Source: Actinomycetota bacterium
GTDB lineage: Bacteria > Actinomycetota > Coriobacteriia > Anaerosomatales > JAUXNU01
Assembly: GCA_030682655.1 (NCBI GenBank)
Contig: JAUXNU010000100.1
Coordinates: forward strand, 1-47,955
DNA length: 47,955 bases
Reading direction: 5' to 3'
In this document: positions 624 to 24,754 of the stretch, in pieces
Layout: the number at the start of each line of letters is the position of its first letter
Numbering within the stretch: the first letter of the stretch is position 1
Notes under the pieces: generated by a model
Database searches by the model: none
What the model was told of the DNA's origin: nothing
The model's input: the letters and a program-made list of their open reading frames with translations, nothing else
Position numbers and translations under genes: made by a program

Positions 624-2525
624 ATGAAACGATTCCTCGTCTATCCATTGATACTCGCAATGCTTGCTAGCTCGATCGTGTTCGCGACCGGGACAGCGTT
701 CGCCGGTACACCGATGTCGGGCGCCATCTGGACCACCGATTCGGATGGCTCCGTGAACATCAACCTCTACGATGCCAAGGACAAGGTCTGGCTGAACGGC
801 GGTCCCATCGGCGGGCAGCAGAAGGGTCTGCCCGACGGGGAGTACTACGTGAAGGTGACCGAACCCGCCGGCGCGATGCTGGGCAAGAGCACCGGCACTG
901 TAACCGTCGTTGACGGCCGATTCGCGACAGCGGTTCGGCTCGTGGACTTCGTCAAGACGACAAGCAGCGGCTACACTGCCTTCGGCTACGACGACACGAC
1001 CAACAATGGTGGGGAGTACAAAGTCTGGCTGAGCAAGAATCCAGCGTTCCCCAACGATGAGTCCAAGACCGACAACTTCAAGGTCAAGGACGACGTCAAG
1101 CTCGTCACGAAGGTGTGGCGCGCCAGCGTCCCCGGCGTGCTGTTGAATCTGGTACCGGACGTCGAGTTCTGGGTCTTCTACTCGAGCACCGATCCGGCGA
1201 CTCCTGACGTCGACATCGACTGGGTGCACGTCCAGCTCGCACGCGAGGACAACACGCTGGTCTTCTCGGCAACAACCGTGCACGAGCTCGGCGAGACGAT
1301 CTGGTTCTGGTGGTTGGGAACCGGCACCGGATACGAACACAAGTCGGACGTCTCCTCAGAGGTGCTGATTCCGGCGACACCCGGCGCACCAATTGAGAAC
1401 GCCTACACGTACGGGGTTGCCTTCAAGGACTGGGCTCTGTACGCTCCTCAGCTCGAGGGCGTCAACTACTACGCAGCCTACAGCATAGACCAGGAGACGT
1501 GGACTCCTGAAGAGGAACTCCGCTATAACCCAGACGGCTACTTCGAAGCAACCAACGTCATCCCAACCGGCTTGACCATCTACTGGAAGTGGATAGCCAA
1601 GAAGGGCGGCGAGGTCTGGTGGGAGAGCAACGTGCTGGGCCCCGAGACTCTCACCGGAGACGCCTCGAACTCCTACGAACTCGTCCTCAAGACCTGGATG
1701 TTGCACACCGGCGCGATGATGCCACCAGTTGATGCGACTGCCTGGGCCTCGTGGAGCGACGACAACGGCTCGACCTGGAACGACGTGCAGCTCCAGCAGT
1801 CCAACGGCACGTGGAGCGCCATGAGCCTGTTCCCGGTCGAGACATCGATCAAGTGGCGCTTCTTCCTCAAGATCGGCGACGCCGAGATGTGGTCATCCGG
1901 AGTCAACGGGCCGGAAACGCTCATGGACGACATGACGAACCATGGCTTCTACGGAGGCCCGCGCACCATCGGCTACTGGATGAACTGGCGCAACCACTTC
2001 AGCCAGACGTCCATGGACGCCATCGTTGCCCAGGTCAATTCCGATGCCGGCGGCTTCAGTTCCGTCTTCAAGAGCGGCGCCGCAGGCGACACCGGGTGGT
2101 ACATGCTGCGCTCCGGCACCAACAAGAAGACCTCGGCCGTAGGCGACGTGGCCTACTGGCTCGGGGAGGCGCAGAACGCCAAGTCGATGTACCAGATGCT
2201 GCGCGCGCAGCTTCTCGGCCTGGAACTCAACGTAGCCATTGCGCAGGCCGGCCAGATGCCGAACAACGGTGACGTCGTAGGAATCTCGCCTTCGGCCAGC
2301 GTCTATCTCACGAAACTGCCGGGATACACGAGCGACCCAACGGTCAACCCATGGGCCACTGAGGTCGTGACGGTCGGACAAGTGATCGGCACCATCGAGG
2401 CCGCTTCCGCCAACAACTGGGTTGGCTGGAGCCGCGCGAAGCAGGAGTTCGCGAAGAACGTGTGCGACTCCATCAACAACTTCGGCCACGGCGGTCCGGC
2501 TGACGTCAGCATCCTCGAACCCTAG
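624..2525 (+). CDS. Large secreted protein with three tandem beta-sandwich-like repeats and a C-terminal GYW domain
   Basis: The 633-residue product starts with a signal peptide (MKRFLVYPLI..., cleavage likely after the AFA near residue 27). ATG 624 is preferred over the upstream ATG at 588 because AAAGGGG at 607-613 is a good ribosome site and the signal peptide begins there. Three repeats of about 85-90 residues are visible at roughly 160-250, 264-346 and 353-435. Each opens with K-x-W or K-D-W, has an I-x-W-x-W strand near its middle or end, and the last two end in GPETL. The C-terminal part (about 446-633) begins TIGYWMNWRNH, resembling the GYWxNH motif of secreted proteins of unknown function. 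No sortase motif or lipobox is present. It is probably an exported surface or matrix protein. It converges on a secreted protease gene, which could act on it (inference). Confidence 0.85.
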   Translation: MKRFLVYPLILAMLASSIVFATGTAFAGTPMSGAIWTTDSDGSVNINLYDAKDKVWLNGGPIGGQQKGLPDGEYYVKVTEPAGAMLGKSTGTVTVVDGRFATAVRLVDFVKTTSSGYTAFGYDDTTNNGGEYKVWLSKNPAFPNDESKTDNFKVKDDVKLVTKVWRASVPGVLLNLVPDVEFWVFYSSTDPATPDVDIDWVHVQLAREDNTLVFSATTVHELGETIWFWWLGTGTGYEHKSDVSSEVLIPATPGAPIENAYTYGVAFKDWALYAPQLEGVNYYAAYSIDQETWTPEEELRYNPDGYFEATNVIPTGLTIYWKWIAKKGGEVWWESNVLGPETLTGDASNSYELVLKTWMLHTGAMMPPVDATAWASWSDDNGSTWNDVQLQQSNGTWSAMSLFPVETSIKWRFFLKIGDAEMWSSGVNGPETLMDDMTNHGFYGGPRTIGYWMNWRNHFSQTSMDAIVAQVNSDAGGFSSVFKSGAAGDTGWYMLRSGTNKKTSAVGDVAYWLGEAQNAKSMYQMLRAQLLGLELNVAIAQAGQMPNNGDVVGISPSASVYLTKLPGYTSDPTVNPWATEVVTVGQVIGTIEAASANNWVGWSRAKQEFAKNVCDSINNFGHGGPADVSILEP

Positions 2526-2558
2526 AGCACAGACACAGGAACACTCGCGGAACCACGG

Positions 2559-2589
2559 AAGGCCCGGTAATCCCGGGCCTTCCTCTTTG
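2559..2589 (+). terminator. Rho-independent terminator
   Basis: A perfect 9-bp stem (AAGGCCCGG / CCGGGCCTT) with a five-base loop lies 34 bases after the secreted-protein stop and is followed by a T-rich stretch (tcctcttt). It sits between two convergent genes and probably serves the plus-strand gene. Confidence 0.8.
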
Positions 2590-2618: not shown

Positions 2619-4178
2619 CTACTTCTTCTTGACGACGCCGTTCGCAACCGTGACGGTGACCGCCGACGACTCGCCTCTGTTTCCCGCCGCGTCATATGCC
2701 CTCGCGACGATGGCGTGCGGGCCGTCGGTGACCGTCCGTGTGTTCCAGGCGACCGAGTACGTGGCACTCGAGTCCGCGCCGACGAGCTTCCCGTCCACAT
2801 AGACGTCCACCCGCGCAACACCTACGTCGTCGGTCGCCTTGAGCGTCACGGTGACGGTTCGCTTCGCTACAGAACCGGCCGACGGGCTGGAAACGCTCAC
2901 GATTGGCACGGTGCTGTCGGCCGGCGGCACGACCGGCACCGGCACCGGCTCGGGCACCGGAGCAGGAGCGGGTATCGGATCCGGAGCCGGAACGCCACCG
3001 AGAGAGTTCAGCGCGCGCGCCACGTTGATCAGGCCAGCGCCGGTCTGAGTGTCCCAGCCGACGGCGGCGACGTCGGTAGCCGTGGATGTGAGAACGCTCG
3101 CAACCTGCGCGGGAGACAGCGACGGGTTCACGCCTCTGACGAGGGCCGCAAGCCCTGAGACGAACGGCGCCGACGCGGACGTCCCGCTGAACAGGCCATA
3201 GCCGCCACCGAGCATGGTGGTGTACACGGTCACGCCCGGGGCGGCGACATCTACATGCGAGCCGTAGTTCGAGTAGATCGCCGGCCTGTCCGTGTCCCAT
3301 GCACTGACAGCAATCGCTTCGGGATAGGCAGCCGGGTACAAGGGGAGCTCCATGCCGTCGTTGCCGGCCGCACCAACAACCACCACACCCTTCGCCACCG
3401 CCAGCTTCACTGCGTCGTGCAGTGTCGTGATATCGACACTCACTAGGCTGAGGTTGATGACTGAGGCTCCGTGATCGGCCGCCCAGAGGATTCCTTTCAC
3501 GACTCCACTGGTCACGCCTGCGGCGTTCGAACCCAGCACCTTGACGGGCATGATCTTGGCACGCCAGTCCATGCCGGCTACGCCGATGCCGTTGTTGCCC
3601 GTGGCCGCGATGATCCCGGCGACAGCAGTTCCATGGTCGTGGTCATCCGTCGGGTCACTGTCGTTGTTCACGAAGTCGTAGCCCGCGACGATTCGACCCT
3701 GCAAGTCGGGATGGGAAGCGTCGACGCCCGTGTCGATCACGGCAACCACCACTGACTCGCTGCCCGTAGAGACGTCCCAGCCCTGCTCGACCGAGATGCT
3801 CCTGGCGTCGCTCTGCTGGCTCCAACACGTATCGTTCGGCGTCATAGTCGCGATCACGTACGCATCGGGCTCTGCATAGAGGACGTTCGGGTTGCGGTAC
3901 AGCGCCCCGACCATCTGCTTCACCGTACGGCCCTTCGGCACCGTCAACACGCGCACGCCGAGCTTGTCGATGCGATCGATCTCGCGCACGCCGTGCTCAG
4001 CTTCGATGCGCGAGATATCCGCGGCCGGGGTGCCGGGCCGAAACTTCACCAGCACCCTGTCGGGCGCATACCCCTGCGAGCCGGTCGCGCCACCGCCTGA
4101 GCCGGCAATGGCGACATTGGGTATGACGAGCGCGATTGCAGCTACGATCGCTATCAGCAATCGCATGCCGCGCGACAT
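2619..4178 (-). CDS. Secreted S8 family (subtilisin-like) serine protease with C-terminal Ig-like domain
   Basis: Numbering here is from the GTG at 4214. The order is signal peptide (hydrophobic 18-37), inhibitor-like propeptide (about 50-120), then a subtilase domain with Asp161 (VIDTGVD), His194 (DHDHGT), oxyanion Asn285 and Ser346 (SGTSASAP). A Pro-rich linker follows (about 409-432), then a bacterial Ig-like domain (about 436-525), ending in KKK. All triad residues are present, so it should be an active extracellular endopeptidase, matured by removal of the propeptide. I place the start at ATG 4178 (residue 13 of the longer frame) because AGGGG lies seven bases upstream; GTG 4214 is the alternative. 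The leader carries a c-di-GMP-I riboswitch, which suggests expression follows the second-messenger level. The gene is convergent with the secreted repeat protein. Confidence 0.93.
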   Translation of the reverse strand: MSRGMRLLIAIVAAIALVIPNVAIAGSGGGATGSQGYAPDRVLVKFRPGTPAADISRIEAEHGVREIDRIDKLGVRVLTVPKGRTVKQMVGALYRNPNVLYAEPDAYVIATMTPNDTCWSQQSDARSISVEQGWDVSTGSESVVVAVIDTGVDASHPDLQGRIVAGYDFVNNDSDPTDDHDHGTAVAGIIAATGNNGIGVAGMDWRAKIMPVKVLGSNAAGVTSGVVKGILWAADHGASVINLSLVSVDITTLHDAVKLAVAKGVVVVGAAGNDGMELPLYPAAYPEAIAVSAWDTDRPAIYSNYGSHVDVAAPGVTVYTTMLGGGYGLFSGTSASAPFVSGLAALVRGVNPSLSPAQVASVLTSTATDVAAVGWDTQTGAGLINVARALNSLGGVPAPDPIPAPAPVPEPVPVPVVPPADSTVPIVSVSSPSAGSVAKRTVTVTLKATDDVGVARVDVYVDGKLVGADSSATYSVAWNTRTVTDGPHAIVARAYDAAGNRGESSAVTVTVANGVVKKK

Positions 4179-4324
4179 GCGAAACGCCCCTGGAAATCCG
4201 ATTCCCCTTGACACGAGCCATCACTCCCTTGATCCGGCCCCCCGGGGAATGGGGCGACGGAGCCGAAGCGCGAGATGCGCTTCGAGCGATGGCGGCGTGG
4301 CACTGGTGGCGGGGCAGCGTCTTT

Positions 4325-4410
4325 GCCGTCGGCAGCCCGGCTATCCTCGTGGGACCCGTGGCTTTGCGTCGCCCCCTCGCGGGGGGTTTGCCTTTTCTTG
4401 GCGTTACATA
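4325..4410 (-). promoter_or_regulatory. Cyclic-di-GMP-I (GEMM) riboswitch aptamer
   Basis: On the minus strand the conserved blocks occur in the correct order. AAAAGGCAAACC ends at 4385; then a CCCCC/GGGGG helix is capped by a GCGA (GNRA) tetraloop; ACGCAAAGCCACGGG starts at 4369; a second arm GGATAGCCGGGCTGCC follows. The base matching position 20 of the Vibrio Vc2 aptamer is G, typical of c-di-GMP rather than cGAMP binding. Aptamer end to protease start is about 150 bases. A strong hairpin (CGAAGCGC/GCGCTTCG, 4264-4284) lies in the leader but is not followed by a T tract, so I cannot tell whether it is an ON or OFF switch. The motif match is seen in the sequence; ligand and direction are inferred. 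Confidence 0.88.
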
Positions 4411-4601
4411 GCACTAAGCTCTTCATCGGTGCTCCGCCCGAGTCGCTTGAGAGCCCGTCGGTGAACGGTAGTCACGACCGCGATGCTCCCCTGTTCCCGC
4501 TTCTCGCGATACGAGAAGGGCTCGCCTCGTGGGCGGGCTCCTGGGTAGGTTCTGATGCCGTCGACCGACGCTGCTAGCCGCGTGGCACCTCGCCGAACGC
4601 G

Positions 4602-4640: not shown

Positions 4641-4734
4641 TGGCGGAGAGCCAGGGATTCGAACCCTGGGTACGGCTATAAACCGCACACACGATTTCCA
4701 ATCGTGCACCTTCAGCCTCTCGGTCAGCTCTCCG
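4641..4734 (-). tRNA. tRNA-Ser (GGA)
   Basis: The minus strand folds as a class II tRNA. It has a 7-bp acceptor CGGAGAG/CTCTCCG, anticodon loop TTGGAAA (anticodon GGA), a long variable arm, T loop GTTCGAATC and an encoded CCA at 4641-4643. It decodes UCC/UCU. Two more tRNA-Ser genes and serS lie in this window. Confidence 0.96.
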
Positions 4735-6450: not shown

Positions 6451-6904
6451 CGTTCCCGCCCTCGCTCGGGACGGATCCGGCCGCCTTGGCCATGTCCTTT
6501 GCAGCCTTCAGGTACTGTGTCATCGCCGCACGTATCCGGTAGAAGTACACGCCAAGGAGAGCCAGCGCGGCGGTGACAAGCAGGTCGCCCGCCAAGGAGA
6601 CCTGCACGGCAAGGTTGACGTCCGTCGTGAACACGCCGACCCACCGGGCGATCATCGAGGCCGCGAAGCACACGACCGCCAACATCATGTAGACGATGTT
6701 GTCCGCAACCATAGAGCCGTCGGCGACGCTGCGCAGTGCATAGGCGTTCAGGAGCAGGATGAGCGAAATGCCCAGACCGACCAAGCCAACGATAATCGAA
6801 AGCCAGTGAGGCACGATCTCGAAGGCTGGCTCGGCGGCGTAGGCAGGCGCCGGTATCGCCATCAGGATGGCAACGAGTACCGTCGTTGTGCGTGCCCGCT
6901 TCAT
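6443..6904 (-). CDS. Small integral membrane protein of unknown function
   Basis: The 153-residue product has a signal-like N terminus (MKRARTTTVLVAILMAIPAPAYA) followed by three or more hydrophobic segments (about 35-57, 68-90, 98-122) and a polar, partly amphipathic C-terminal tail. AAGGAGGA lies just upstream of ATG 6904. It is upstream of, and overlaps, the small helical gene. The function is unknown; the pair looks like a small membrane complex. It may be cotranscribed with the DUF2207 gene 128 bases upstream. Confidence 0.78.
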   Translation of the reverse strand: MKRARTTTVLVAILMAIPAPAYAAEPAFEIVPHWLSIIVGLVGLGISLILLLNAYALRSVADGSMVADNIVYMMLAVVCFAASMIARWVGVFTTDVNLAVQVSLAGDLLVTAALALLGVYFYRIRAAMTQYLKAAKDMAKAAGSVPSEGGNDG

Positions 6905-8938: not shown

Positions 8939-9394
8939 CTACCCCTTCCGCAAGCTTTCGAAGAAGCCCTTGAGCAGTGCCGAGGACTCCTCGGCGAGTA
9001 TCCCTGAGGTCACGGCGAAACGGTGGTTGAGCCGCTCGTCGTTCGAGAGGTCGTAGAGAGTGCCGACGGCGCCGGCCTTCGGGTCGGTGGTCCCGTAGAC
9101 GAGCCGGTCAATGCGCGCCTGATGCATGAGCCCCGCGCACATCGGACAGGGTTCGAGGGTGACGTAGACGGTGCAGTCCGAGAGACGCCAGCGCCCGAGC
9201 TTGGCTGCCGCCTCGCGGATCGCGAGGAACTCGGCGTGACCAGCTGGGTCATGGTCGATCTCGCGGCGGTTGTGGCCACGGGAGACGATTGCGCCCTCGC
9301 AGACAACCAGCGCTCCGATCGGGACTTCGCCGAGGTCGCCAGCGTGTCGCGCTTCATCAAGCGCGAGAGCCATGAATGTCTCATCGGCATGCAC
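8939..9394 (-). CDS. tadA: tRNA adenosine(34) deaminase
   Basis: The 151-residue protein is a cytidine-deaminase-fold enzyme converting A34 to inosine in tRNA-Arg(ACG). The zinc site is seen as GHAEF (His ligand plus catalytic Glu) and EPCPMCAG (two Cys ligands); ETFMALALDEARHA at the N terminus is the usual TadA opening. GTG 9394 is chosen because GGAGGA is nine bases upstream and the family begins here; the longer frame runs back through a tRNA. It is the first gene of the tadA-DUF2207 operon. Its substrate tRNA gene lies at 9866, about 470 bases away on the other strand. Confidence 0.95.
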   Translation of the reverse strand: MHADETFMALALDEARHAGDLGEVPIGALVVCEGAIVSRGHNRREIDHDPAGHAEFLAIREAAAKLGRWRLSDCTVYVTLEPCPMCAGLMHQARIDRLVYGTTDPKAGAVGTLYDLSNDERLNHRFAVTSGILAEESSALLKGFFESLRKG

Positions 9395-9551
9395 GCGTCT
9401 GACTCCTCCGGCCTCTGCTGCCTCTATGCAGATTCTACCATCGGTGCGTCTGAGGTGTGGCGCGCACGTGGTCGGACGCGCGGTGCGCGCGCGAGCGAGG
9501 GGTGCTAGACTACCTGCGCGCGGGCAGGAATCGCGCGTGGTGCCCCGGCGC

Positions 9552-9641
9552 GGAGGGGTGGCAGAGTCTGGCTTAATGCGGCGGTCTTGAAAACCGCTGA
9601 CCCGCAAGGGTCCGGGGGTTCGAATCCCTCCCCCTCCGCCA
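9552..9641 (+). tRNA. tRNA-Ser (UGA)
   Basis: Class II tRNA: acceptor GGAGGGG/CCCCTCC, anticodon loop CTTGAAA (anticodon TGA at 9588-9590), long variable arm, T loop GTTCGAATC, encoded CCA at 9639-9641. First of three plus-strand tRNAs. Confidence 0.96.
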
Positions 9642-9717
9642 TGTGCTGCCCCCGCTTCCTCGGCAGGGGTCACCTTGCTACAATGGTTCGGCGCTGCGCC
9701 CCTCCCGGGGGACGTAC

Positions 9718-9811
9718 GGAGAGTTGGCCGAGTCGGTTGAAGGCGCTCGCCTGCTAAGCGAGTAAGGGGCTAATCGCCCCTTCGAGGGTTCGAATCCCTC
9801 ACTCTCCGCCA
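9718..9811 (+). tRNA. tRNA-Ser (GCU)
   Basis: Class II tRNA: acceptor GGAGAGT/ACTCTCC, anticodon loop CTGCTAA (anticodon GCT), long variable arm, encoded CCA at 9809-9811. It decodes AGC/AGU. A TACAAT box at about 9679-9684 could be a promoter -10. Confidence 0.96.
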
Positions 9812-9865
9812 TTTGACAACCACGCTGCCGATTGGCAGTATTGCTAGGCCCGTACGCGGGCACAC

Positions 9866-9985: not shown

Positions 9986-10080
9986 GCGTCCCGGCCTCGC
10001 GCGAACCGCACGCTCCGCCCGCACGTCCAAGCTTGTGACGCGTGCCCACCAACGGGTTCGCGCGCCCGGAGGGAGGACCC

Positions 10081-10806
10081 ATGCGCATCACGCACGCAGG
10101 CGTCATCGCCGCGACACTCGCAGCCGCATTGCTGCTCACAGGCTGCCAGACGAAGGTCGTCACAGCCCCCGCCCAGTCGACCGCTCTGGAGACAGTGACC
10201 GCCCAGGGCATGGGCAAGACCTTGGCCGCACCAGACGCCGCCGAGATCAGCCTCGGCGTGTCGTTCACGGAGCCCAGCGCCAAGGACGCGCTCGACAAGG
10301 CGTCAAAGGCTGCGGACAAGCTCTCCGCGGCGGTTCAGAAGGCCGGAGTCGCCAAGGAGGACGTCCAAACGGCGAACATCAGCGTCTACCCGCAGTACCG
10401 TCAGAAGAGCGGCAAGCCCGAGATCACCGGGTACCAGGCGTCGATCGACGTGCGCGTGAAGGTCCGCGACATCGAGCGCGTGGGCGACGTGATAGCTGCG
10501 GGTTCGGACGCGGGAGCCACCAACATCGGCGGCCCCAGCTTCGTGCTGGACGATGACGCTGCCGCCAGCGCCGAGGCGATCGAGAACGCGATTGACAAGG
10601 CCCGCGCGCGCGGCGAGGCGATGGCCAAAGCCGCCGGCCGCACGCTCGGCGCGATTCGGGCGGTGAGCGACTCGGGTGTGTCCACGCCCGTCTACCACGG
10701 CACGTGGTCCGACGGTCTCAGGGGGTACGCGCCGGAAGCCATCGCCGTCGAGCCCGGACAACTCGACATCACCGCGAACGTGACGGTGATCTTCGACCTG
10801 GAGTAG
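10081..10806 (+). CDS. SIMPL (DUF541) domain lipoprotein
   Basis: The 241-residue product has a lipoprotein signal ending LLLTGC (Cys22) and a SIMPL domain (about 38-240) with the family's opening VTAQGMGKTLAAPDAAEISLGV. Its middle has alternating strands and helices and it ends ITANVTVIFDLE. SIMPL proteins are exported; a few bind signalling partners, but most have no known role. GGAGGGAGGA sits just upstream of ATG 10081. It is probably anchored on the outer face of the membrane. Confidence 0.92.
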   Translation: MRITHAGVIAATLAAALLLTGCQTKVVTAPAQSTALETVTAQGMGKTLAAPDAAEISLGVSFTEPSAKDALDKASKAADKLSAAVQKAGVAKEDVQTANISVYPQYRQKSGKPEITGYQASIDVRVKVRDIERVGDVIAAGSDAGATNIGGPSFVLDDDAAASAEAIENAIDKARARGEAMAKAAGRTLGAIRAVSDSGVSTPVYHGTWSDGLRGYAPEAIAVEPGQLDITANVTVIFDLE

Positions 10807-10861: not shown

Positions 10862-11356
10862 ATGCGCACGATCATCGGAGTCATGGGCGGTGGCGAGGCC
10901 GATCCCGCGACCACTGCAGCGGCCGGCCAGCTCGGCGCGCTCATCGCTGCGCAGGGTTGGGTGCTCCTCACCGGCGGCCGCGCATGCGGGGTCATGGACG
11001 CTTCCTCACGTGGCGCGCACGAGGCCGGGGGAACCGTCGTCGGCGTACTGCCGGATGACGACACGCGACGCACGTCGGGCCACGTGGACATCCCGATCCT
11101 CACGGGCATGGGCGACGCCCGCAACGTGATCAACGTGCTCTCGAGCCGGGTTGTCGTCGCCATGCGGGGCAGCGCCGGCACGATCTCCGAGGTCGCGCAC
11201 GCCCTCAAGGCAGGTCGGCCCGTGGTCGCCCTTGACTTCCCGCTCGGCGAGCGGTTCATCGAGTACTACACGTCCGGACGCCTCGTCGACGTCTCCAACC
11301 CGATTGAGGCAATCGAGGCAGTCCGCACGTTCCTTGGCGAAAGGGACACGCCGTGA
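10862..11356 (+). CDS. TIGR00725-type Rossmann-fold protein (LOG / lysine-decarboxylase-like superfamily)
   Basis: The 164-residue protein begins IIGVMGGGEADP and has LLTGGRACGVMDASSRGAHEAGG and RGSAGTISEVAHALKAGRPV. These are the glycine-rich phosphate-binding segments of the TIGR00725/molybdenum-cofactor-carrier-like fold. The full PGGxGTxxE motif of cytokinin-type LOG enzymes is replaced by RGSAGTISE, so phosphoribohydrolase activity is uncertain. Its stop overlaps the GTG of the next gene by four bases. The ribosome site is AGGGAGG before ATG 10862, and a TACACT box near 10835 is a possible -10. Confidence 0.85.
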   Translation: MRTIIGVMGGGEADPATTAAAGQLGALIAAQGWVLLTGGRACGVMDASSRGAHEAGGTVVGVLPDDDTRRTSGHVDIPILTGMGDARNVINVLSSRVVVAMRGSAGTISEVAHALKAGRPVVALDFPLGERFIEYYTSGRLVDVSNPIEAIEAVRTFLGERDTP

Positions 11357-12171
11357 GCGTTGCCGGCAAGGTCGTGGTCATCACAGGCTCAACACGCGGC
11401 ATCGGTCGCTCGATCGCCGAGGCCTGCGCGGGCGCGGGAGCGCATGTCGTGGTGAGCTCGCGCACGCCCGAGGCGGTCGAGGGCGCGGTCGCCGACATCG
11501 CGACAGCCGACGGCGGCTCGGTGTGCGGCATCGCCTGCGACGTCTCCGACCCTGCCCGGCTCCAGGCACTGTTCGACTTCGCGATCGCCCGCTACGGCCA
11601 CATCGATGTCTGGCTCAACAACGCCGGCGTCTCCGAGGGCTACCGCCCCCTCGACGAGCTGTCCGGCGCAGAGATCCGCAGCCTCGTCGACATCAACCTC
11701 ACGGGCACGATGCTCGCGTGCCGGCTCCTGGTCCCGTACTTCCGCGAGCACGGCGGACTCCTCATGAACGTGACCGGCCGCGGGTATCGCGGCGAGGCCA
11801 CCCCCTACACGGCCGCCTACGCCGCCACCAAAGTCGCGATCGCGAGCCTCACCCGCTCAATCGCCAAGGAGAACGCCCGCTTCCCGATGTCTATCCACGC
11901 ACTAGTCCCCGGCATGGTCGCTACCGACTTCTACCGCGACATCAAGGTGAGCCCACGACTGCAGACCACCAAGCACAATTGGCGCTACGCCCTCGACGCG
12001 TTCGGCGTGCCGCTCGACCGCGTGGGTGTCGAAACCGTGTCGCTGCTTGGCCAGGAGCCGGGCCGCGTCACCGGCAAGGTCTACTCACTCATCACACCGG
12101 CGCGCACCGTGCGCGGCATCCTGAAGATCATGGGCCACCGCGCGAGCGGCATGCTCAAGGCCGAGGACTAG
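11353..12171 (+). CDS. SDR family oxidoreductase
   Basis: The 272-residue classical short-chain dehydrogenase has a cofactor loop TGSTRGIG (11-18), a DVS adenine-binding motif, NNAGVS, and an active-site YAATK. The stretch that normally holds the catalytic Ser reads NVTGRGYRGE, so Ser appears replaced, which is unusual and may alter activity. Substrate cannot be told from sequence. GTG 11353 overlaps the preceding stop (GTGA), and the following gene starts five bases after its stop, so the three genes form an operon. Confidence 0.92.
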   Translation: MSVAGKVVVITGSTRGIGRSIAEACAGAGAHVVVSSRTPEAVEGAVADIATADGGSVCGIACDVSDPARLQALFDFAIARYGHIDVWLNNAGVSEGYRPLDELSGAEIRSLVDINLTGTMLACRLLVPYFREHGGLLMNVTGRGYRGEATPYTAAYAATKVAIASLTRSIAKENARFPMSIHALVPGMVATDFYRDIKVSPRLQTTKHNWRYALDAFGVPLDRVGVETVSLLGQEPGRVTGKVYSLITPARTVRGILKIMGHRASGMLKAED

Positions 12172-12175
12172 CGCG

Positions 12176-13843
12176 ATGGACCCGGAACGCCGACACGAGC
12201 CCATTCTCCGTGCACGGCAGCGCCGGTCCGGGTATGGCTCATCGCGTCGCGCGGCCCGCCCGTCGCGTCGCGACGCGATACTCATCTCCCCGGGCGGCAC
12301 GCGATCGTCGGTGTCGGCCTACGGGCGGCCGCGCAGACGCGGGGGCGGGCGGGCACTCCTTGGCGTGCTCGCCCTCCTGTTGGTTGCCGGCGCGGTGGGC
12401 GTCTTCACGTACACGCGGCCGGTCGGCGCGGCGATAGCGGCCACACCTGCCGACGCAGCGATCGCGTCGTGCGAATGCACGGCCACCGGGTCGCTCGCGC
12501 TGGCCGACCTCGAGCCAGGCACATACGCCGTCCGTGTCGAGCGCGCGGGCTTCGAGCCGCTCGACACGAGCGTCGCGCTCAAGCGGTTCTCGGACAACGA
12601 GTTCAGCTTCGCGCTCAAACCGCTGCCACAGAAGACCGAGGTCGTGGTGCATCCCGAAGGTGCGACCGTCCGCATCCTGGCGGGCGAGCGCGAGGTCGCC
12701 GCCGACACCGGGAAGCTCGCGGCGGAAATCCCCTCCGGGTCCTACACCGTCGAAGCGACCCTCAAGGGCTGCAACGCATACCGGCGCGACCTCGTGATCG
12801 ACCGGAAGACCTCGCTGGAGCTGTGGCTCGACCCGAAGGGCCAGCTCGTGCACAGCCTTGGCATGGTGACCACGTCCGGCGCACCCAAGGCCGTCGCGAT
12901 CACGCCTGACGGCCGCGAGGTCTGGGCGACGATACTGAACGGCCCGCCGTCGATCGAGATCTTCGACCCCGTAACGCTTCGCCGCACCGGCACGGTCGAC
13001 ATCGGCGAGCACGGTGCGGTCGAGATCGAGTTCTCGGCCGACGGGACGCGCGCCTACGCGAGCCAGATGGAAACGGCCCGTGTCTTCGAGATCGACACGA
13101 AGACGCGCAAGGTCCTGCGCTCGATGGACACCGAGAGCGCGTGGACCAAGGTCGTCGAGCTGTCCCCGAACGGCAAGACCGCTTACGCGGCGAACTGGTC
13201 CGGCCACGACGTGTCCGAGATCGACATCTCCTCGGGCAAGCTGCGGCGGCGCATACGCACGGCGAACACCCCGCGCGGACTGTACGCGACCGAGGACGGC
13301 GCCGCCCTCTACGTGGCAGGCTTTGGCACCGGCGATCTCGACCGGATCGACCTGGCCTCCGGCGATTCCAAGACGGTTTTCGACGGCGGCGGGGCCCTGC
13401 GCCATATCGTCGCGGACGCCGACAAGAGCATCCTCTACATCTCCGACATGTCCAAGGACGTGGTCTGGAAGCACGACATGCTCACCGGCAAGACGACGAA
13501 GTTCCTCGAGACCGACGAGAAGCCCAACACGATCGACCTCTCCCCCGACGGGGCCGTGCTGTTCGTCTCCTGCCGAGGAGAGAACAACTCCAAGAGCTAC
13601 TACATCCCCGGGCCAGAGTGGGGCACGATCCTGCTGTTCGATACCGAGACCGGCAAGCCGCTAGATGCGGTTGTAGGCGGCAACCAGTGCACCGCGCTCG
13701 ACGTTTCGGGCGACGGCAAGCTGCTGGTGTTCTCCGATTTCCTGGACAACCGGCTGCGGTTCTATCAGGTTCCCGACATCGGAACGTTGCGGGCCGGCGA
13801 CGGAGGCCGTTTCAAGCAGCACTTCGCCGATCTGCAGAAGTAG
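12176..13843 (+). CDS. Membrane-anchored PEGA-domain and YncE-like beta-propeller protein
   Basis: The 555-residue product has a basic cytoplasmic N terminus, one membrane segment (about 60-80), two PEGA-like beta domains (about 85-145, 150-215; LADLEPGTYAVRVERAGFEPL is typical), and a propeller (about 220-550) with repeated blades marked by SPNGKTAYAANW, SPDGAVLFVS and similar. YncE-type propellers bind ligands or partners, often at the cell surface. It is the last gene of the operon from 10862; its role is unknown. Confidence 0.88.
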   Translation: MDPERRHEPILRARQRRSGYGSSRRAARPSRRDAILISPGGTRSSVSAYGRPRRRGGGRALLGVLALLLVAGAVGVFTYTRPVGAAIAATPADAAIASCECTATGSLALADLEPGTYAVRVERAGFEPLDTSVALKRFSDNEFSFALKPLPQKTEVVVHPEGATVRILAGEREVAADTGKLAAEIPSGSYTVEATLKGCNAYRRDLVIDRKTSLELWLDPKGQLVHSLGMVTTSGAPKAVAITPDGREVWATILNGPPSIEIFDPVTLRRTGTVDIGEHGAVEIEFSADGTRAYASQMETARVFEIDTKTRKVLRSMDTESAWTKVVELSPNGKTAYAANWSGHDVSEIDISSGKLRRRIRTANTPRGLYATEDGAALYVAGFGTGDLDRIDLASGDSKTVFDGGGALRHIVADADKSILYISDMSKDVVWKHDMLTGKTTKFLETDEKPNTIDLSPDGAVLFVSCRGENNSKSYYIPGPEWGTILLFDTETGKPLDAVVGGNQCTALDVSGDGKLLVFSDFLDNRLRFYQVPDIGTLRAGDGGRFKQHFADLQK

Positions 13844-13871
13844 GCCCACCCCGCGATTCCCCGCCTCATCC

Positions 13872-14302
13872 TCAGAGGGCATGCCCCCCGAACTGGTTGC
13901 GCAATACCGAGAGCACCTGTCCCGCGTAGCTCGGGTCGCGCTCGGACTCCACACGAAACTGCAGGGCGCCTTCGATGATGCGCGCCGGCACCCCGATCTC
14001 CTTGGAAGCGTCGACCGTCCAGGCGCCTTCGCCGGTGTGTCTTACGGCACCGCCTACCCCACCAAGATCCTGGCCGAACTCCTCGAAGGCGGATTCCAGC
14101 CACCCGATCAGCCGTGACTCGATGACCGAACCGTTCTGGTAGACGTCGGCCACACGGGCGAGATCGAGACCGTACTCGGACGCGTGCATGATCTCGAACC
14201 CCTCGGCGATCGCCTGCATCATGCCGTACTCGATGCCGTTTCCCCGGTCGCCCCGAACACGACGAGCACCGTCGGGGTGTTGAATGCAGCGTCGAGCGCC
14301 AT
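13872..14302 (-). pseudogene. Deletion scar: zwf start joined out of frame to the 3' part of gnd
   Basis: ATG 14302 opens a frame MALDAAFNTPTVLVVFGATG, which is the N terminus of glucose-6-phosphate dehydrogenase up to its NADP loop. It then breaks at about 14240, where another frame begins NGIEYGMMQAIAEGFEI. That is the C-terminal 122 residues of 6-phosphogluconate dehydrogenase, intact to its stop at 13872. The zwf frame closes soon after the joint. A deletion of the rest of zwf and the first part of gnd explains this; an assembly join would look the same. Neither enzyme can be made from this locus. Confidence 0.8.
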
Positions 14303-14446
14303 CTGCCCTGCCCTCCGCAGTCACGTGCCCGAAGCGTCGGCGTCCGCGACACCGGCCGAGGAGTACATTCCCCATGCGCGGGAGGCCGCGTTGGCACGGA
14401 GTTCGCAGCCGCGGAAGACCAGCGGACTCGGCTGGAGAGGTGAAGC

Positions 14447-14815
14447 ATGCTCGCATACAAGGAAACGCTCACGTCGGACATCACGCGGGTGGCGCTGGAG
14501 TGGCTGCCGAGCCCGGTGTTCGTGCACGATGTGGACACCCTCTTCTACGCGAATCTCGCCGCACAGGAGCTCTTCGGGGCGTCGGATCGCTCGCACCTGG
14601 AGGGACTGGCAATTGAGTCTATCGTGCACCCCCATGATCGCGACGCTGGAGCACAACGAAGGACGCTTGTCCTCCAGCACGACCACGTCTATGAACGCGT
14701 GCCCCTCAAGCTGCTCACACTCCAGGGGGAGCCGCTGTATCTCGAGGTATCGGCGCGGCGCATCTTCGTGGGAGGCGTCCCGCTCATCCTCGCCGTCGGC
14801 CGCTGGGGCTCGTAA
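14447..14815 (+). CDS. Stand-alone PAS domain protein
   Basis: The 122-residue protein is a single PAS domain: WLPSPVFVHDVDTLFYANLAAQELFG, then HLEGLAIESIVHPHDRDA and the closing strands. It has no output domain, so it probably acts as a sensor or adaptor for a partner protein. The start has AGAGGTG upstream. It is divergent from the zwf/gnd scar and converges on serS. Confidence 0.8.
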   Translation: MLAYKETLTSDITRVALEWLPSPVFVHDVDTLFYANLAAQELFGASDRSHLEGLAIESIVHPHDRDAGAQRRTLVLQHDHVYERVPLKLLTLQGEPLYLEVSARRIFVGGVPLILAVGRWGS

Positions 14816-14830
14816 CCCCGGCTCGCCGCT

Positions 14831-16114
14831 CTACCCCACCGGCTCGATGACCTCGACGCCGCCCATGTACGGGCGCAGCGCCTCGGGTACGACAACGCTG
14901 CCGTCTGCCTGCTGATAGTTCTCGAGCACGGCGACGAGCGTCCGCCCGACTGCAAGACCCGAGCCGTTCAGCGTGTGCACGAGACGACTTCCCTTGAACG
15001 CCGCCGGGTCCCGGTACTTGATCGCCGCGCGTCGCGCCTGGAAATCGGTGCAGTCGCTGCAACTCGAGATCTCCTTGTACGCGCCATAGCTCGGCAGCCA
15101 GACCTCGACGTCGTAGGTCTTGGCAGCGGAAAAGCCCATGTCCCCCGTGCACAGCGTGATGGTGCGATACGGCAGGCCAAGGAGCTGCAGGATGTTCTCT
15201 GCGTCGACGACCATGGTCTCGAGCTCGTCGAAGCTCGTCTCCGGTGTCGCGAACTTCACCATCTCGACCTTGTCGAACTGGTGCACGCGAATCATCCCGC
15301 GCGTGTCGCGACCGGCCGCCCCGGCCTCCTCGCGGAAGCACGGCGTGTACGCGCAGTAGCGCAAAGGCAGCTGGCTCGCATCAAGCACCTCATCGCGGTG
15401 CAGGTTCGTGAGCTGCACCTCGGCGGTGGGAATCAGGTAGAGCCCCTCGTCGGTCCGGAACAGGTCCTCCTCGAACTTCGGCAGCTGGCCGGTTCCGGTG
15501 AGCGTCTCGGCGTTCGCAAGCGCCGGAAGCGACCACTCCGCATACCCGCGCGATGAGTGCGTGTCGAGCATGAAGTTGATGAGTGCGCGGTTGAGCTTCG
15601 CCCCCATGCCGCCCAGGACGATGAAGCGCGACTTCGCGAGCTTCACGCCACGGTCGAAGTCGATCGCACCGAGTGCAGGGCCAAGGTCCCAGTGCGGGAC
15701 CGGCTCGAAGTCGAACTCGCGAGGCGTGCCCCACCGGCGCACTTCGACGTTGGCAGTCTCGTCCGGACCGACCGGTACGGACGCGTCGGGAATGTTGGGA
15801 ACCGTCATGAGAAGCTGACGGACGTCGGCCTCCACATGCTCGAGATGGGCGTCGTGTTGTGCGATCTCGTCGTTGACCTCGCGGACCGACTCCTTGGCAA
15901 CTTCGGCCTCTTCACGCTTGCCGTCCTTCATGAGCGCGCCGATCTGCTTCGAAGCCTCGTTGCGGCGTGCCTGGAGGCCTTCGACGACCTGTATCAGCTC
16001 ACGGCGCTCCTCGTCGAGCCGCGCAAACGCCTCGATGTCCCAGCTTGACCCGCGTGCGGCGAGCGCCTCGCGAACAGCGTCGAGATTCTCGCGAACGAAC
16101 TTGGCATCGAGCAT
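14831..16114 (-). CDS. serS: Serine--tRNA ligase
   Basis: The 427-residue class II synthetase charges tRNA-Ser. The N-terminal coiled-coil arm (about 1-105, reading long tRNA variable arms) is followed by the catalytic core with TAEV, motif 2 [22 protein letters not shown] and motif 3 [19 protein letters not shown]. Length is normal. ATG 16114 follows GGAGG and matches the family N terminus ([14 protein letters not shown]); the upstream in-frame ATG at 16156 is unlikely. Only 84 bases separate it from the glycosyltransferase gene, and I see no T-box. Three tRNA-Ser genes lie within 11 kb. Confidence 0.98.
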
Positions 16115-16198
16115 GGAGGGGCCTCCCGGATACTCCTGCCGAGGAGATGGCATCAACTCGTTTGCGAGTATACCGTACGGTTGTCGTGAGACGGCCCG

Positions 16199-17920
16199 TC
16201 AGCGCGCCTCGATGATCGAGTACCACGTGCCCGCGACCTCGTAGGTGACGAGCGCGTCCTCGGCGGCCCCTTCCTCGACCAGCCTCAGCCGCAGTTCGTC
16301 GAGGCCGGCGTCCGCCGAAGAGCGGAACATACTGCCGTCAGAAGGCTCGAAGCACCCGAGCTTCCAGTAGCTGGCGCTACGCGCAATCAACTTCGGGGTC
16401 ACGAACTTGTGGCCGAGGACCTCGGGCGCGAACTCCACTCGCACCGGCGAGACTGGTGACGCGAGTTCGTCGGCGACCCACGCAATCTCCTTGCCATGCC
16501 GTGCATAGACCTGGTGCAACATGAGCCGGTTGTAGTAGGCCCCGACGCCGAAGAGGTAGAACACGACGAGCCCCGCCGTAAGCATGAGAGTCGCGTGCTT
16601 CGGCGCACGCCACAGCACGACACTCATTCCGGTCACCAAGATGAGCGCGACCCACAACAGCGGCCTTCCAAGCAGCCACATGCGGTAGACATCGATAGCC
16701 CCGCGATCGGTCATGAGACTCGCGAGGTCAGACTCGACCAAACCCCTCCAGGCACGCAGGACAAGCGCGACAGGGAGCGCCCACCCGACAATGACTGCAG
16801 TAGCGCCGAGTGGTTGGAACCACCGGCGCATCCTCGGCAGGGTCATGAACGCAAGAATGATGTAGAACGCCACCATGTAGATGGCGTAGCGGCCCATCAC
16901 CTTCGACGGATCCGGGTAGTTGTAGTACGCGCGCCACGAATGACGGACCATCGCGACGGCGAACGCGGCGTTCAGCCCGAACACGAGCACGACCGCGCGC
17001 TCGTATACGCCCAGAGTGCGAGACCGGAGCGTTTCGGGCACGGACATGAGCACCAGACCGAGCACCGGCGCGGCGGCGAGCACGAAGTAGGCGCCGTACA
17101 CGCGCACCCATAGGCCGAGACGCGCAAGCGTGAGCTGCGCGGGGTCGGGACGGGCCGCGATGCCGAAACCGAGGATGTCCTTGAGTGACGCCCCCTGCGG
17201 CGCCTGCATCGCGATCCAAACGCCGAATGTCACCGTGATCGCGGTGACCAGGACCGCGAACCGCCCGAGCTTCGCGGCCGAAGGCGAGAAGAGCCGTCGA
17301 CCCTCGTCAGTCGCCGACGGCCGAAGCCACCACACCGCGACGAACACGGGGATGAGCGCGAAAGATATGTAGCGCGTGAGGTACAGCGCACCCAGGAGCA
17401 CGCCCGTCCCGAGATCCCAAAGCACCGGTCTGCTCTTCGGCTGTCGAAGGACCATCCACGCGGCGAACAGAAACAGCGGGAAGTACAAGTTCTCGCTCAA
17501 GACGGAGCGTGGCAGCACGAGGTGGAACGGGATGAGAGCGAGCACGCCCGCGCACGCGAGGCTCTCCCGGCGCTCCAGCGTCAGACGTGCGATCAGGTAG
17601 GCCGGAACGACGATGGCCGACGAGTAGAGTACGTTCAGGAGCTTGATGACCTCGTGGAAGTTGTCGCCGCAGAAGAACGCGACCGAGATGGACAGCGGGT
17701 AGAGTAGTGGGTAGTGCGTGCCGTCGTAGGATAGCGACCCGGCGAGAGATCGCGCATAGTCGGTGTACTGGGCCTCGTCCATGAAGACGACGGGACCGCA
17801 TGCGGTCTTCGTGACGAGAAGCAGCTTCACCGCCACGAGCGCCGCGAACAGGAGGATGACTCCCGTATACTCCTCGGCTATACCTCGGACATTCTCGCGC
17901 ACATCCGTCTCCTCGCACAT
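16199..17920 (-). CDS. GT-C type membrane glycosyltransferase (PMT/ArnT-like)
   Basis: The 573-residue product has about 11-12 hydrophobic segments and a first periplasmic loop with MDEAQYTDYARSL (about 47-59), the acidic motif of lipid-linked-sugar GT-C transferases. A soluble C-terminal part (about 475-573) follows. It probably transfers a sugar from a polyprenyl carrier outside the membrane; acceptor unknown. ATG 17920 lacks a good ribosome site, while GTG 17902 has GAGGAG six bases upstream and may be the true start. It may be cotranscribed with serS. Confidence 0.85.
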   Translation of the reverse strand: MCEETDVRENVRGIAEEYTGVILLFAALVAVKLLLVTKTACGPVVFMDEAQYTDYARSLAGSLSYDGTHYPLLYPLSISVAFFCGDNFHEVIKLLNVLYSSAIVVPAYLIARLTLERRESLACAGVLALIPFHLVLPRSVLSENLYFPLFLFAAWMVLRQPKSRPVLWDLGTGVLLGALYLTRYISFALIPVFVAVWWLRPSATDEGRRLFSPSAAKLGRFAVLVTAITVTFGVWIAMQAPQGASLKDILGFGIAARPDPAQLTLARLGLWVRVYGAYFVLAAAPVLGLVLMSVPETLRSRTLGVYERAVVLVFGLNAAFAVAMVRHSWRAYYNYPDPSKVMGRYAIYMVAFYIILAFMTLPRMRRWFQPLGATAVIVGWALPVALVLRAWRGLVESDLASLMTDRGAIDVYRMWLLGRPLLWVALILVTGMSVVLWRAPKHATLMLTAGLVVFYLFGVGAYYNRLMLHQVYARHGKEIAWVADELASPVSPVRVEFAPEVLGHKFVTPKLIARSASYWKLGCFEPSDGSMFRSSADAGLDELRLRLVEEGAAEDALVTYEVAGTWYSIIEAR

Positions 17921-23156: not shown

Positions 23157-24754
23157 GTCGCGGCCTCTCCCTCATTCGGTGCCCCGACGCGCGCGCCGCC
23201 GACGGCTGTCCCGGGCCCGATGCGCGGTGAGCGCACCCGGTTCTTCCCGCTGTTCTTGGCGTGGTAGAGCGCATCGTCAGCGAGCCGCAGCAGCGACTCC
23301 TTGTCGCGCGCATGGTGCGGATAGGTCGCAAGTCCGAGGGACACGGTGATGTGGCAGGACCGATCTCCGTCCGAATCTGCGAACAAGTGGCTCGCAATGG
23401 CCTCGCGAATCTTCTCGGCCACGACGAAGACTCCAGCGCCGTCGGTCTCCGGCAGGATAACGGAGAACTCCTCACCGCCGTAGCGCGCCACCACATCGAC
23501 CTCGCGCACCGAGTTCCTGAGCACGGTGCCGAGCTCCGCAAGGGCCAGATCGCCCGCGATGTGTCCCTGCGTATCGTTGAAGCGCTTGAACTCATCGACG
23601 TCGAGCATGACGAAGGAGACGTCCTTCGAGTAGCGGCGCGCGCGCTCGATCTCCTCGTCGAGACGCTGCTGGAGGTAGCGATAGTTGTTAAGGCCGGTCA
23701 GCTCATCTGTTATGGCAAGCCGCTTCGTGAGCTTGTAGAGCTGCGAGTTCTCAACCGCGACAACAAGCTCGCTCGCCACTGCTTGCAGCACGAGCCGGTC
23801 CTCCTCGGTCAGGTCGTCCACGGCACCCGACTCGGCGCAGAACACAACCATCATCTGATGGTGATCGAGTATCGACAGACACGTGTAGTGGTCGTCGGTG
23901 ACCGGCATGCCCCCAGCCAGTTCGCGGAAACGCGGAGGCACAACGGCCCCATCGCCGCTCATGCCGACACTGGCGCTGAACAGCGTGCGTGACTTCTGGC
24001 GATCGATCACGAACAGGCAGCATGACGGTACGTCGATGACCTTCGTGACTATGTCGAGGACGAGCGGCCCCACCCGGTCGAAATCGAGGCTTGAGTGGAT
24101 GATCTCGTTCATCTGGGACACGGCTTGCAGTTCCGCAAGGCGGCGGCGCAGCTGGGTGTTGAGCACGTCCTTCTCTTCCCGGCTAGCTTCGATCTCGCTT
24201 TCGCGCTCGCGATAGCGCCCGGCCATCGCCGTAGCGATGGCGGCAACGAATCCGATCGCAGCGGTCTTGACGAGGATGAACCCGAGCGCCGGAAGATCAT
24301 TCGGCATCTCGGCTATGTTGTGCGCGATGAGATAGGTGAATGCTGCAGCGGCGGCAATGATCATCCCGTCCCGCCGACGCACCACGTAGCTGTAGAACAC
24401 AGGAATGGAGATCAGCGCGGGGTAGACCGGGTCCTCGTATGCGTGCAAAGCAATCGTGAGCGCACCCAGTCCGACAAGGTCCAGCGGTGCCAGCCAGGTG
24501 AGAAGCTGCGTCAACTCGACGTCCTCGCGGCGCCTGAGTGCGAAATACGCCACTGTGACAACCGTGAAGACTCCGGCTGCGACAAGGACGATCGGCATGC
24601 GCATGTCGTTCTTGATGTACGTGCCAAGAATGGCGAGCGCCACTACCAGCACATACAGGACGACACGGACGCGCGCGTACGTGCGCTTGGCTTGCAGATC
24701 GAACTCTGTATCTGAGGGGTGCGCCACTGCGCTCCGCATCTGTCGTTTCCACAT
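23153..24754 (-). CDS. Membrane-bound diguanylate cyclase (TM-GAF-GGDEF)
   Basis: The 533-residue protein has five or six N-terminal membrane segments (about 30-190), a short coiled coil (about 195-220), a GAF-like domain (about 225-370) and a GGDEF domain (about 375-510). The active-site motif is GGEEF, and RxxD of the inhibitory site (REVD) precedes it at the proper spacing. It should make c-di-GMP and be product-inhibited. ATG 24754 is chosen as the last start before the membrane region; the frame runs to 24967 through an intergenic palindrome. pheA overlaps its 3' end. This is the likely local source of the ligand for the riboswitch at 4325-4410. Confidence 0.93.
   Translation of the reverse strand: MWKRQMRSAVAHPSDTEFDLQAKRTYARVRVVLYVLVVALAILGTYIKNDMRMPIVLVAAGVFTVVTVAYFALRRREDVELTQLLTWLAPLDLVGLGALTIALHAYEDPVYPALISIPVFYSYVVRRRDGMIIAAAAAFTYLIAHNIAEMPNDLPALGFILVKTAAIGFVAAIATAMAGRYRERESEIEASREEKDVLNTQLRRRLAELQAVSQMNEIIHSSLDFDRVGPLVLDIVTKVIDVPSCCLFVIDRQKSRTLFSASVGMSGDGAVVPPRFRELAGGMPVTDDHYTCLSILDHHQMMVVFCAESGAVDDLTEEDRLVLQAVASELVVAVENSQLYKLTKRLAITDELTGLNNYRYLQQRLDEEIERARRYSKDVSFVMLDVDEFKRFNDTQGHIAGDLALAELGTVLRNSVREVDVVARYGGEEFSVILPETDGAGVFVVAEKIREAIASHLFADSDGDRSCHITVSLGLATYPHHARDKESLLRLADDALYHAKNSGKNRVRSPRIGPGTAVGGARVGAPNEGEAAT

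Follow-up and report, generated by a model that had tools for sequence, protein, structure and literature searches.

A c-di-GMP-I riboswitch upstream of a secreted subtilisin that converges on an exported repeat protein in an Actinomycetota genome

To our knowledge, only one bacterial protease/adhesin pair is under both classes of c-di-GMP riboswitch, that of Clostridioides difficile. There, CD2831 is released by PPEP-1 at low c-di-GMP (PMC6447587). A genome of the order Anaerosomatales (G000; 2.94-Mb assembly, the sole genome of its family in our comparison) has a related arrangement on contig C100. In the 47,955-nucleotide stretch analyzed here (the window), a secreted protease under c-di-GMP-I lies beside the gene for an exported partner, as PPEP-1 (Zmp1, CD2830) does beside CD2831 (PMC6447587, PMC6200980). 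Is this locus an independent version of that switch, built on a different protease?

Aptamer, protease, and partner in the window

The features of the locus are as follows.

624..2525, plus strand: exported repeat protein, 633 aa, convergent partner of the subtilisin (signal peptide; homologues in sister family f5)
1431..1988, plus strand: two tandem "GPETL" repeats, about aa 270-455 (repeat HMM)
2557..2583, between the genes: perfect 11-bp GC hairpin, read from the sequence, followed by TCTTTGC on the plus strand
2619..4214, minus strand: secreted S8 subtilisin, 531 aa (Pfam; D161, H194, S346, N285)
4215..4327, minus strand: leader from aptamer to start codon (SD AAGGGAG; 10-bp helix predicted)
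4328..4402, minus strand: c-di-GMP-I (GEMM-I) riboswitch aptamer (RF01051; short P3 form, GCGA [GNRA] tetraloop)
4424..4450, minus strand: candidate sigma28/WhiG-type promoter, TCAAG-N15-ACCGATG (motif; chance 0.002 in this 150 nt)

The initial annotation described a well-formed GEMM aptamer upstream of the protease gene, and the covariance search agreed. RF01051 matched minus-strand positions 4402-4328 over the full model (1-87) with 59.3 bits against a gathering cutoff of 35 (E 3.4e-9, whole window searched). The match falls within the region originally claimed, whose end coordinate of 4410 was a few bases generous. The variant model RF03167 (c-di-GMP-I-GGC) gave 58.3 bits (cutoff, 59). The aptamer is on the same strand as the S8 gene and 113 nt from its start, in the 5′ leader. 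It scores 59 bits versus 77 bits in the best relatives and has several nonstandard pairs in P1 and P2; the conserved core (GGCAAA, GACGCAAAGCC, and the GNRA loop) is intact. A G precedes the GC pair, and we take this residue to be equivalent to G20 of Vc2, the position that favors c-di-GMP. The G20A variant of a c-di-GMP-I riboswitch binds cGAMP (PMC6274999).

No run of three or more U was found between the aptamer and the start codon, and an intrinsic terminator was therefore rejected as the expression platform. The SD is partly inside the predicted 10-bp helix GCCAUCGCUC:GAGUGAUGGC, and in folding it was partly closed by this helix whatever the state of the aptamer; constrained folding gave no difference in SD exposure between aptamer states. 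The window riboswitch is ordinary as an RNA, but the arrangement of genes around it is not.

The protease gene starts with GTG (4214), with an ATG at 4178 as a possible alternative. Its product proved to be the intact secreted subtilisin that had been proposed downstream of the aptamer, with a signal peptide, a fervidolysin-type prodomain, a Peptidase_S8 domain (PF00082, 184 bits; catalytic domain, aa 154-394), a Big_7 Ig domain (aa 437-503), and a basic C-terminal tail. The Asp/His/Ser triad D161/H194/S346 and N285 are in place. It is not a PPEP: the enzyme is an S8 protease without a homologous HExxH zincin domain.

The subtilisin gene converges on the exported repeat-protein gene as first described; the stop codons are 93 bp apart, and the partner has a signal peptide. 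The hairpin at 2557-2583 is likely the terminator of the repeat-protein gene, judging from its sequence. No Pfam family matched the partner over its cutoff (best, CBM_20, E 0.04). A profile of the GPETL repeat matched it three times, in the two tandem copies and in a partial copy upstream of them. The repeat was predicted to fold as a CBM20-like beta-sandwich (AF2 pLDDT 90.5). A Foldseek search of PDB ranked CBM20 domains first (E 5.6e-3, prob 1.00), which agrees with the weak Pfam match. The partner is probably a glycan-binding matrix or surface protein. It has neither LPxTG nor a membrane segment at its C terminus, which ends in ...GGPADVSILEP, and an Rfam search upstream of position 624 gave no c-di-GMP-II hit even at E <= 10.

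Protease/partner pairs in relatives

Co-occurrence of the protease and the repeat protein in relatives, on which the initial annotation had staked its reading, held in sister family f5. Five of the six f5 hits of the window S8 showed 48-51% identity (E 1e-121 to 1e-137), and the sixth was a paralogue (45% identity, E 1e-102); outside f5, relatives reached at most 46% identity and E 1e-73. Two f5 genomes contain five convergent S8/secreted-protein pairs, four in G018 and one in G033. All five partner genes are preceded by RF03169 (c-di-GMP-II). No type I aptamer was found upstream of the f5 S8 genes in L137/L138 (E <= 5) or L143/L144 (E <= 1). With type I at the window S8 and type II on the f5 partners, no single S8 locus carries both halves, and the S8 module is wired from one side per lineage. 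Since the f5 partners carry type II, both sides of the S8-type pair are c-di-GMP linked, with different sides in different lineages.

Over about 200 aa, two of the f5 partners share homology with the window partner (31-33% identity). The repeat profile, built from the window and f5 partners only, was searched against 688 ORFs. Of the 12 that it matched, nine are convergent partners at metalloprotease loci (E 3e-28 to 3e-6), and the rest are the S8 partners themselves. Because the profile matches both kinds of partner, the CBM20-like domain is a common building block of the proteins that face two unrelated proteases, and c-di-GMP riboswitches are present on these genes.

The metalloprotease loci include the only other c-di-GMP-I site in the G000 assembly, on contig C205. 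This locus (L033; G000:C205:60388-80387) contains, in its own numbering:

about 9085-9816, minus strand: upstream sortase gene (Pfam Sortase)
10001-10093, plus strand: type I aptamer, c-di-GMP-I
10191-10766, plus strand: exported mini-metalloprotease
10977-16451, minus strand: convergent DUF11-repeat LPFTG surface protein, 1825 aa
16526-16613, minus strand: c-di-GMP-II-GAG

The window's own genome thus has a complete dual-riboswitch locus, with type I on the protease and type II on the convergent LPFTG partner. In 45 cases a type I aptamer was followed, at about 90-110 nt, by an exported protein of roughly 165-240 aa with the motif HE(I/V)WHIIDWRDNG-IDWGEN. Records with a protease of this type bear the names Coriobacteriia or Anaerosomatales, or the broader name Actinobacteria. 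LPFTG and a membrane segment end the convergent ORF in 35 of 38 loci, and a sortase gene adjoins the locus in at least 17 cases. Among the 31 pairs for which the contig extends at least 5 kb downstream, 27, C205 included, have RF03169 c-di-GMP-II-GAG at the far end of the surface-protein gene on that gene's strand. Two such aptamers were seen on the surface-protein strand of one locus at G018:C3, G027:C22, G061:C9, and G053:C3.

The HExxH family (A1, 44 sequences) belongs to no Pfam family, and a profile search against PDB found no related sequence. Its catalytic part was predicted with a pLDDT of about 96, and the best PDB folds were selecase and other minigluzincins (4qhi, E 5.7e-3, prob 1.00). 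A PPEP assignment was rejected, as none appeared in the PDB profile search or among the best 50 fold matches. Since selecase and minigluzincins lead and PPEPs are missing from these matches, the modeled fold indicates that the family is most likely a mini-zincin and not a PPEP.

The complete two-sided layout of PPEP-1/CD2831 is that of the metalloprotease module and not of the S8 module. The proposal that the window is an independent actinobacterial version of PPEP-1 using a subtilisin consequently stands in part: the riboswitch, the intact secreted subtilisin, and the convergent pair in relatives were all found, but the window partner lacks type II and LPxTG, and within this genome the C205 metalloprotease locus corresponds best to PPEP-1/CD2831.

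c-di-GMP-I was present in 59 of 99 relatives, usually in one copy, and the downstream genes were read for all 66 sites. An S8 protease follows at two of these, in the window and in G010, and the G010 gene has no convergent partner. The remaining targets are secreted GH26, GHL15, GH5-like, and pectate-lyase-like enzymes and two GGDEF proteins; the glycanase targets in the order also have no convergent partner. Examples are L054, L050, L060, L061, and L078 (GH26-like), L040 and L083 (GHL15), L056 (GH5-like), and L048 (pectate-lyase-like). Phylum-wide, c-di-GMP-I occurred in 155 of 396 genomes. An exported HExxH...DW protein follows the aptamer at 3 of 30 loci sampled outside the order. At one of the three (L261), the facing convergent genes encode a sortase and an LPYTG surface protein; a second is followed immediately by a sortase gene on its own strand. 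No type II was found at any of them in the stretches examined. In L259 and L261, from other families of the phylum, c-di-GMP-I and the HExxH...DW protein lie beside sortase genes.

Promoter class and switch direction

The pattern T[AC]A[AG]-N13-17-[GA]CCGAT was found upstream of the aptamer at 40 of 45 metalloprotease loci (shuffle expectation, 0.2), and the window candidate has the same motif and position. CCGATA elements can be read near the f5 S8 starts, where the fixed pattern matched only one. G000 has a gene for a FliA/WhiG-family sigma factor that scores above the curated cutoff. From these motifs we infer that the protease promoters may depend on sigma28/WhiG. In other Actinobacteria, the anti-sigma RsiG sequesters a FliA/WhiG-type sigma when bound to c-di-GMP (PMC8325347). 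The protease genes here have the same promoter class (TAAA/GCCGATAA) and the sigma is encoded, but an RsiG motif was not found in the scanned stretches of G000, which cover part of the genome. The genome has 14 GGDEF matches, one of which is a domain encoded in the window at 23237-23716 on the minus strand (155.7 bits).

In many members of the order, e.g., L046 and L063, a CRP/FNR-like palindrome (TGTGACGAAnCnCACA) was noted by eye just upstream of the sigma28-like promoter. Just upstream of the window protease promoter, ARAGORN placed a tRNA-Ser(GGA) at 4641-4733 on the minus strand; it scored 51 bits in a shorter Rfam scan and was missed by the window-wide Rfam scan.

The type II leaders have a terminator hairpin and a T-rich stretch, and in 26 of 30 the 5′ arm of the hairpin is the aptamer's own GAGACCG. 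Because ligand binding would prevent a terminator that overlaps the aptamer, the geometry suggests that these are ON switches. The metalloprotease type I leaders have in common a conserved CGGCCCG...CGGGCCG hairpin and an AAGGGG SD. When they were folded freely, the SD paired with aptamer nt 1-4. When P1 was set by hand, the SD was freed in 39 of 43 leaders, and mean accessibility rose from 0.23 to 0.54. The folding thus predicts an ON geometry, the reverse of PPEP-1. In the GH26 and G010 S8 leaders, 10-16 nt separate the aptamer from the start codon, with the SD in or next to the 3′ strand of P1, a layout that reads as OFF geometry. In C. difficile, the class I switches that proved functional were all OFF switches, and those of class II were ON switches (PMC6200980); another study describes type I aptamers as able to work in either direction, ON or OFF (PMC9262584).

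In many A3 leaders (41 metalloprotease leaders), a second SD (GGGAGGAG) lies in the conserved hairpin and is followed by ATGTGC, a possible short upstream ORF that is in frame with the protease in some genomes.

Proposed logic and alternatives

How might such a pair work? We suggest that the window is a c-di-GMP-controlled protease/target module with a shedding logic, in which low c-di-GMP yields the protease and high c-di-GMP the matrix protein. The subtilisin would probably be transcribed from the sigma28/WhiG-type promoter through the c-di-GMP-I riboswitch, and its output would follow the c-di-GMP level, given the presumed ligand response and direction. After export and loss of the prodomain, the enzyme would most likely act on the CBM20-like partner encoded head-on, its putative substrate. 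Homologues of the partner would be made at high c-di-GMP through c-di-GMP-II antitermination switches. Most likely, motile cells with low c-di-GMP would make the protease and release the matrix protein, and sessile cells with high c-di-GMP would make the matrix protein and little protease. The aptamer score, the intact S8 protease, the f5 convergence with type II, the shared repeat, the promoter, and the 14 GGDEF matches all argue for the module, as do the remaining type I targets of the order, most of which are secreted glycanases or proteases, and the OFF class I and ON class II switches of C. difficile (PMC6200980). Against it are the lack of an S8 locus with both classes, a partner without LPxTG, and a window SD unaffected by aptamer state; the ON geometry predicted for the metalloprotease leaders argues further against shedding. 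Since the evidence on type I direction conflicts, we hold the shedding model at even chances only.

If both proteins were made at high c-di-GMP, the protease would be a maturation or assembly factor and not a shedding enzyme. The freeing of the SD by P1 in 39 of 43 metalloprotease leaders is an ON design that would fit, type II on the partners also looks ON, and type I aptamers can work in either direction (PMC9262584). That P1 was imposed by hand, however, weakens the folding result, and the OFF geometry of the GH26 and G010 S8 leaders, the motile, low-c-di-GMP state suggested by a sigma28-type promoter, and the uniformly OFF class I switches of C. difficile (PMC6200980) all point the other way, so that we regard joint production at high c-di-GMP as unlikely. 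It is conceivable, though doubtful, that the subtilisin serves the dispersing cell as a general exoenzyme and that the facing repeat-protein gene is incidental to its choice of substrate. Type I aptamers do precede secreted GH26, GHL15, GH5-like, and pectate-lyase-like enzymes and the G010 S8 protease, all without a convergent partner, but the S8/partner convergence recurs at five f5 loci, each with type II on the partner, and the repeat of the partner is also found in partners of an unrelated protease. Finally, the aptamer might have decayed or might sense another dinucleotide, leaving the S8 gene outside c-di-GMP control. Its deficit of bits relative to the best relatives and its nonstandard P1 and P2 pairs would be consistent with this, but the score far above the cutoff, the intact core, and the G before the GC pair, presumably the Vc2 G20 position, make decay or a changed ligand highly improbable.

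Under the shedding model or not, the window arrangement is one branch of the c-di-GMP-wired protease/partner modules of Coriobacteriia-type Actinomycetota, with a protease not homologous to that of C. difficile. It differs from PPEP-1/CD2831 in that the genes converge, in the absence of type II and LPxTG from the window partner, and in the enzyme, which is S8 in the window and, at C205, a mini-zincin unlike PPEP in sequence and fold. In relatives and at C205 the likeness extends to a partner under c-di-GMP-II, and the C205 partner has a sortase motif. PPEP-2 of Paenibacillus alvei likewise has its substrate encoded beside the protease gene, as the putative substrates are here, but it is a PPEP-type metalloprotease with Pro-Pro specificity, and no such enzyme is present here (PMC12828418). 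The minigluzincins and selecase (4qhi, 4jiu, 4jix) are the best fold match of the C205-type protein. In contrast with them, C205-type proteins are exported, appear from their leaders to be riboswitch controlled, carry the HE(I/V)WHIIDWRDNG-IDWGEN motif, and have no Pfam family.

Pairing in relatives, with the opposite sensor class on the partner, suggests an independent origin of the protease/adhesin switch in these bacteria, and the likeness to the C. difficile switch is probably due to convergent evolution. We think it somewhat probable that Actinomycetota, independently of Firmicutes, evolved dual-riboswitch modules in which type II switches on exported adhesive proteins and type I controls a head-on protease, and that new exported mini-zincins and S8 proteases were recruited against partners sharing a CBM20-like repeat. 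If so, the same layout with nonhomologous proteases would be a repeatable regulatory solution for surface detachment. The modules offer dozens of putative protease/substrate pairs for testing, an exported metalloprotease family that Pfam lacks among them, and why two RNA classes serve the two sides is directly testable in them. No earlier account of such modules turned up in literature searches on combinations of c-di-GMP-I and subtilisin, c-di-GMP-II-GAG, Coriobacteriia, and sortase.

The other c-di-GMP-II-GAG aptamer of G000 lies in L228 at 6557-6642 on the plus strand (G000:C123:30556-30641). The large exported protein encoded after it contains several CxxCH haem motifs, resembles a multihaem cytochrome, and hints at c-di-GMP control of extracellular electron transfer.
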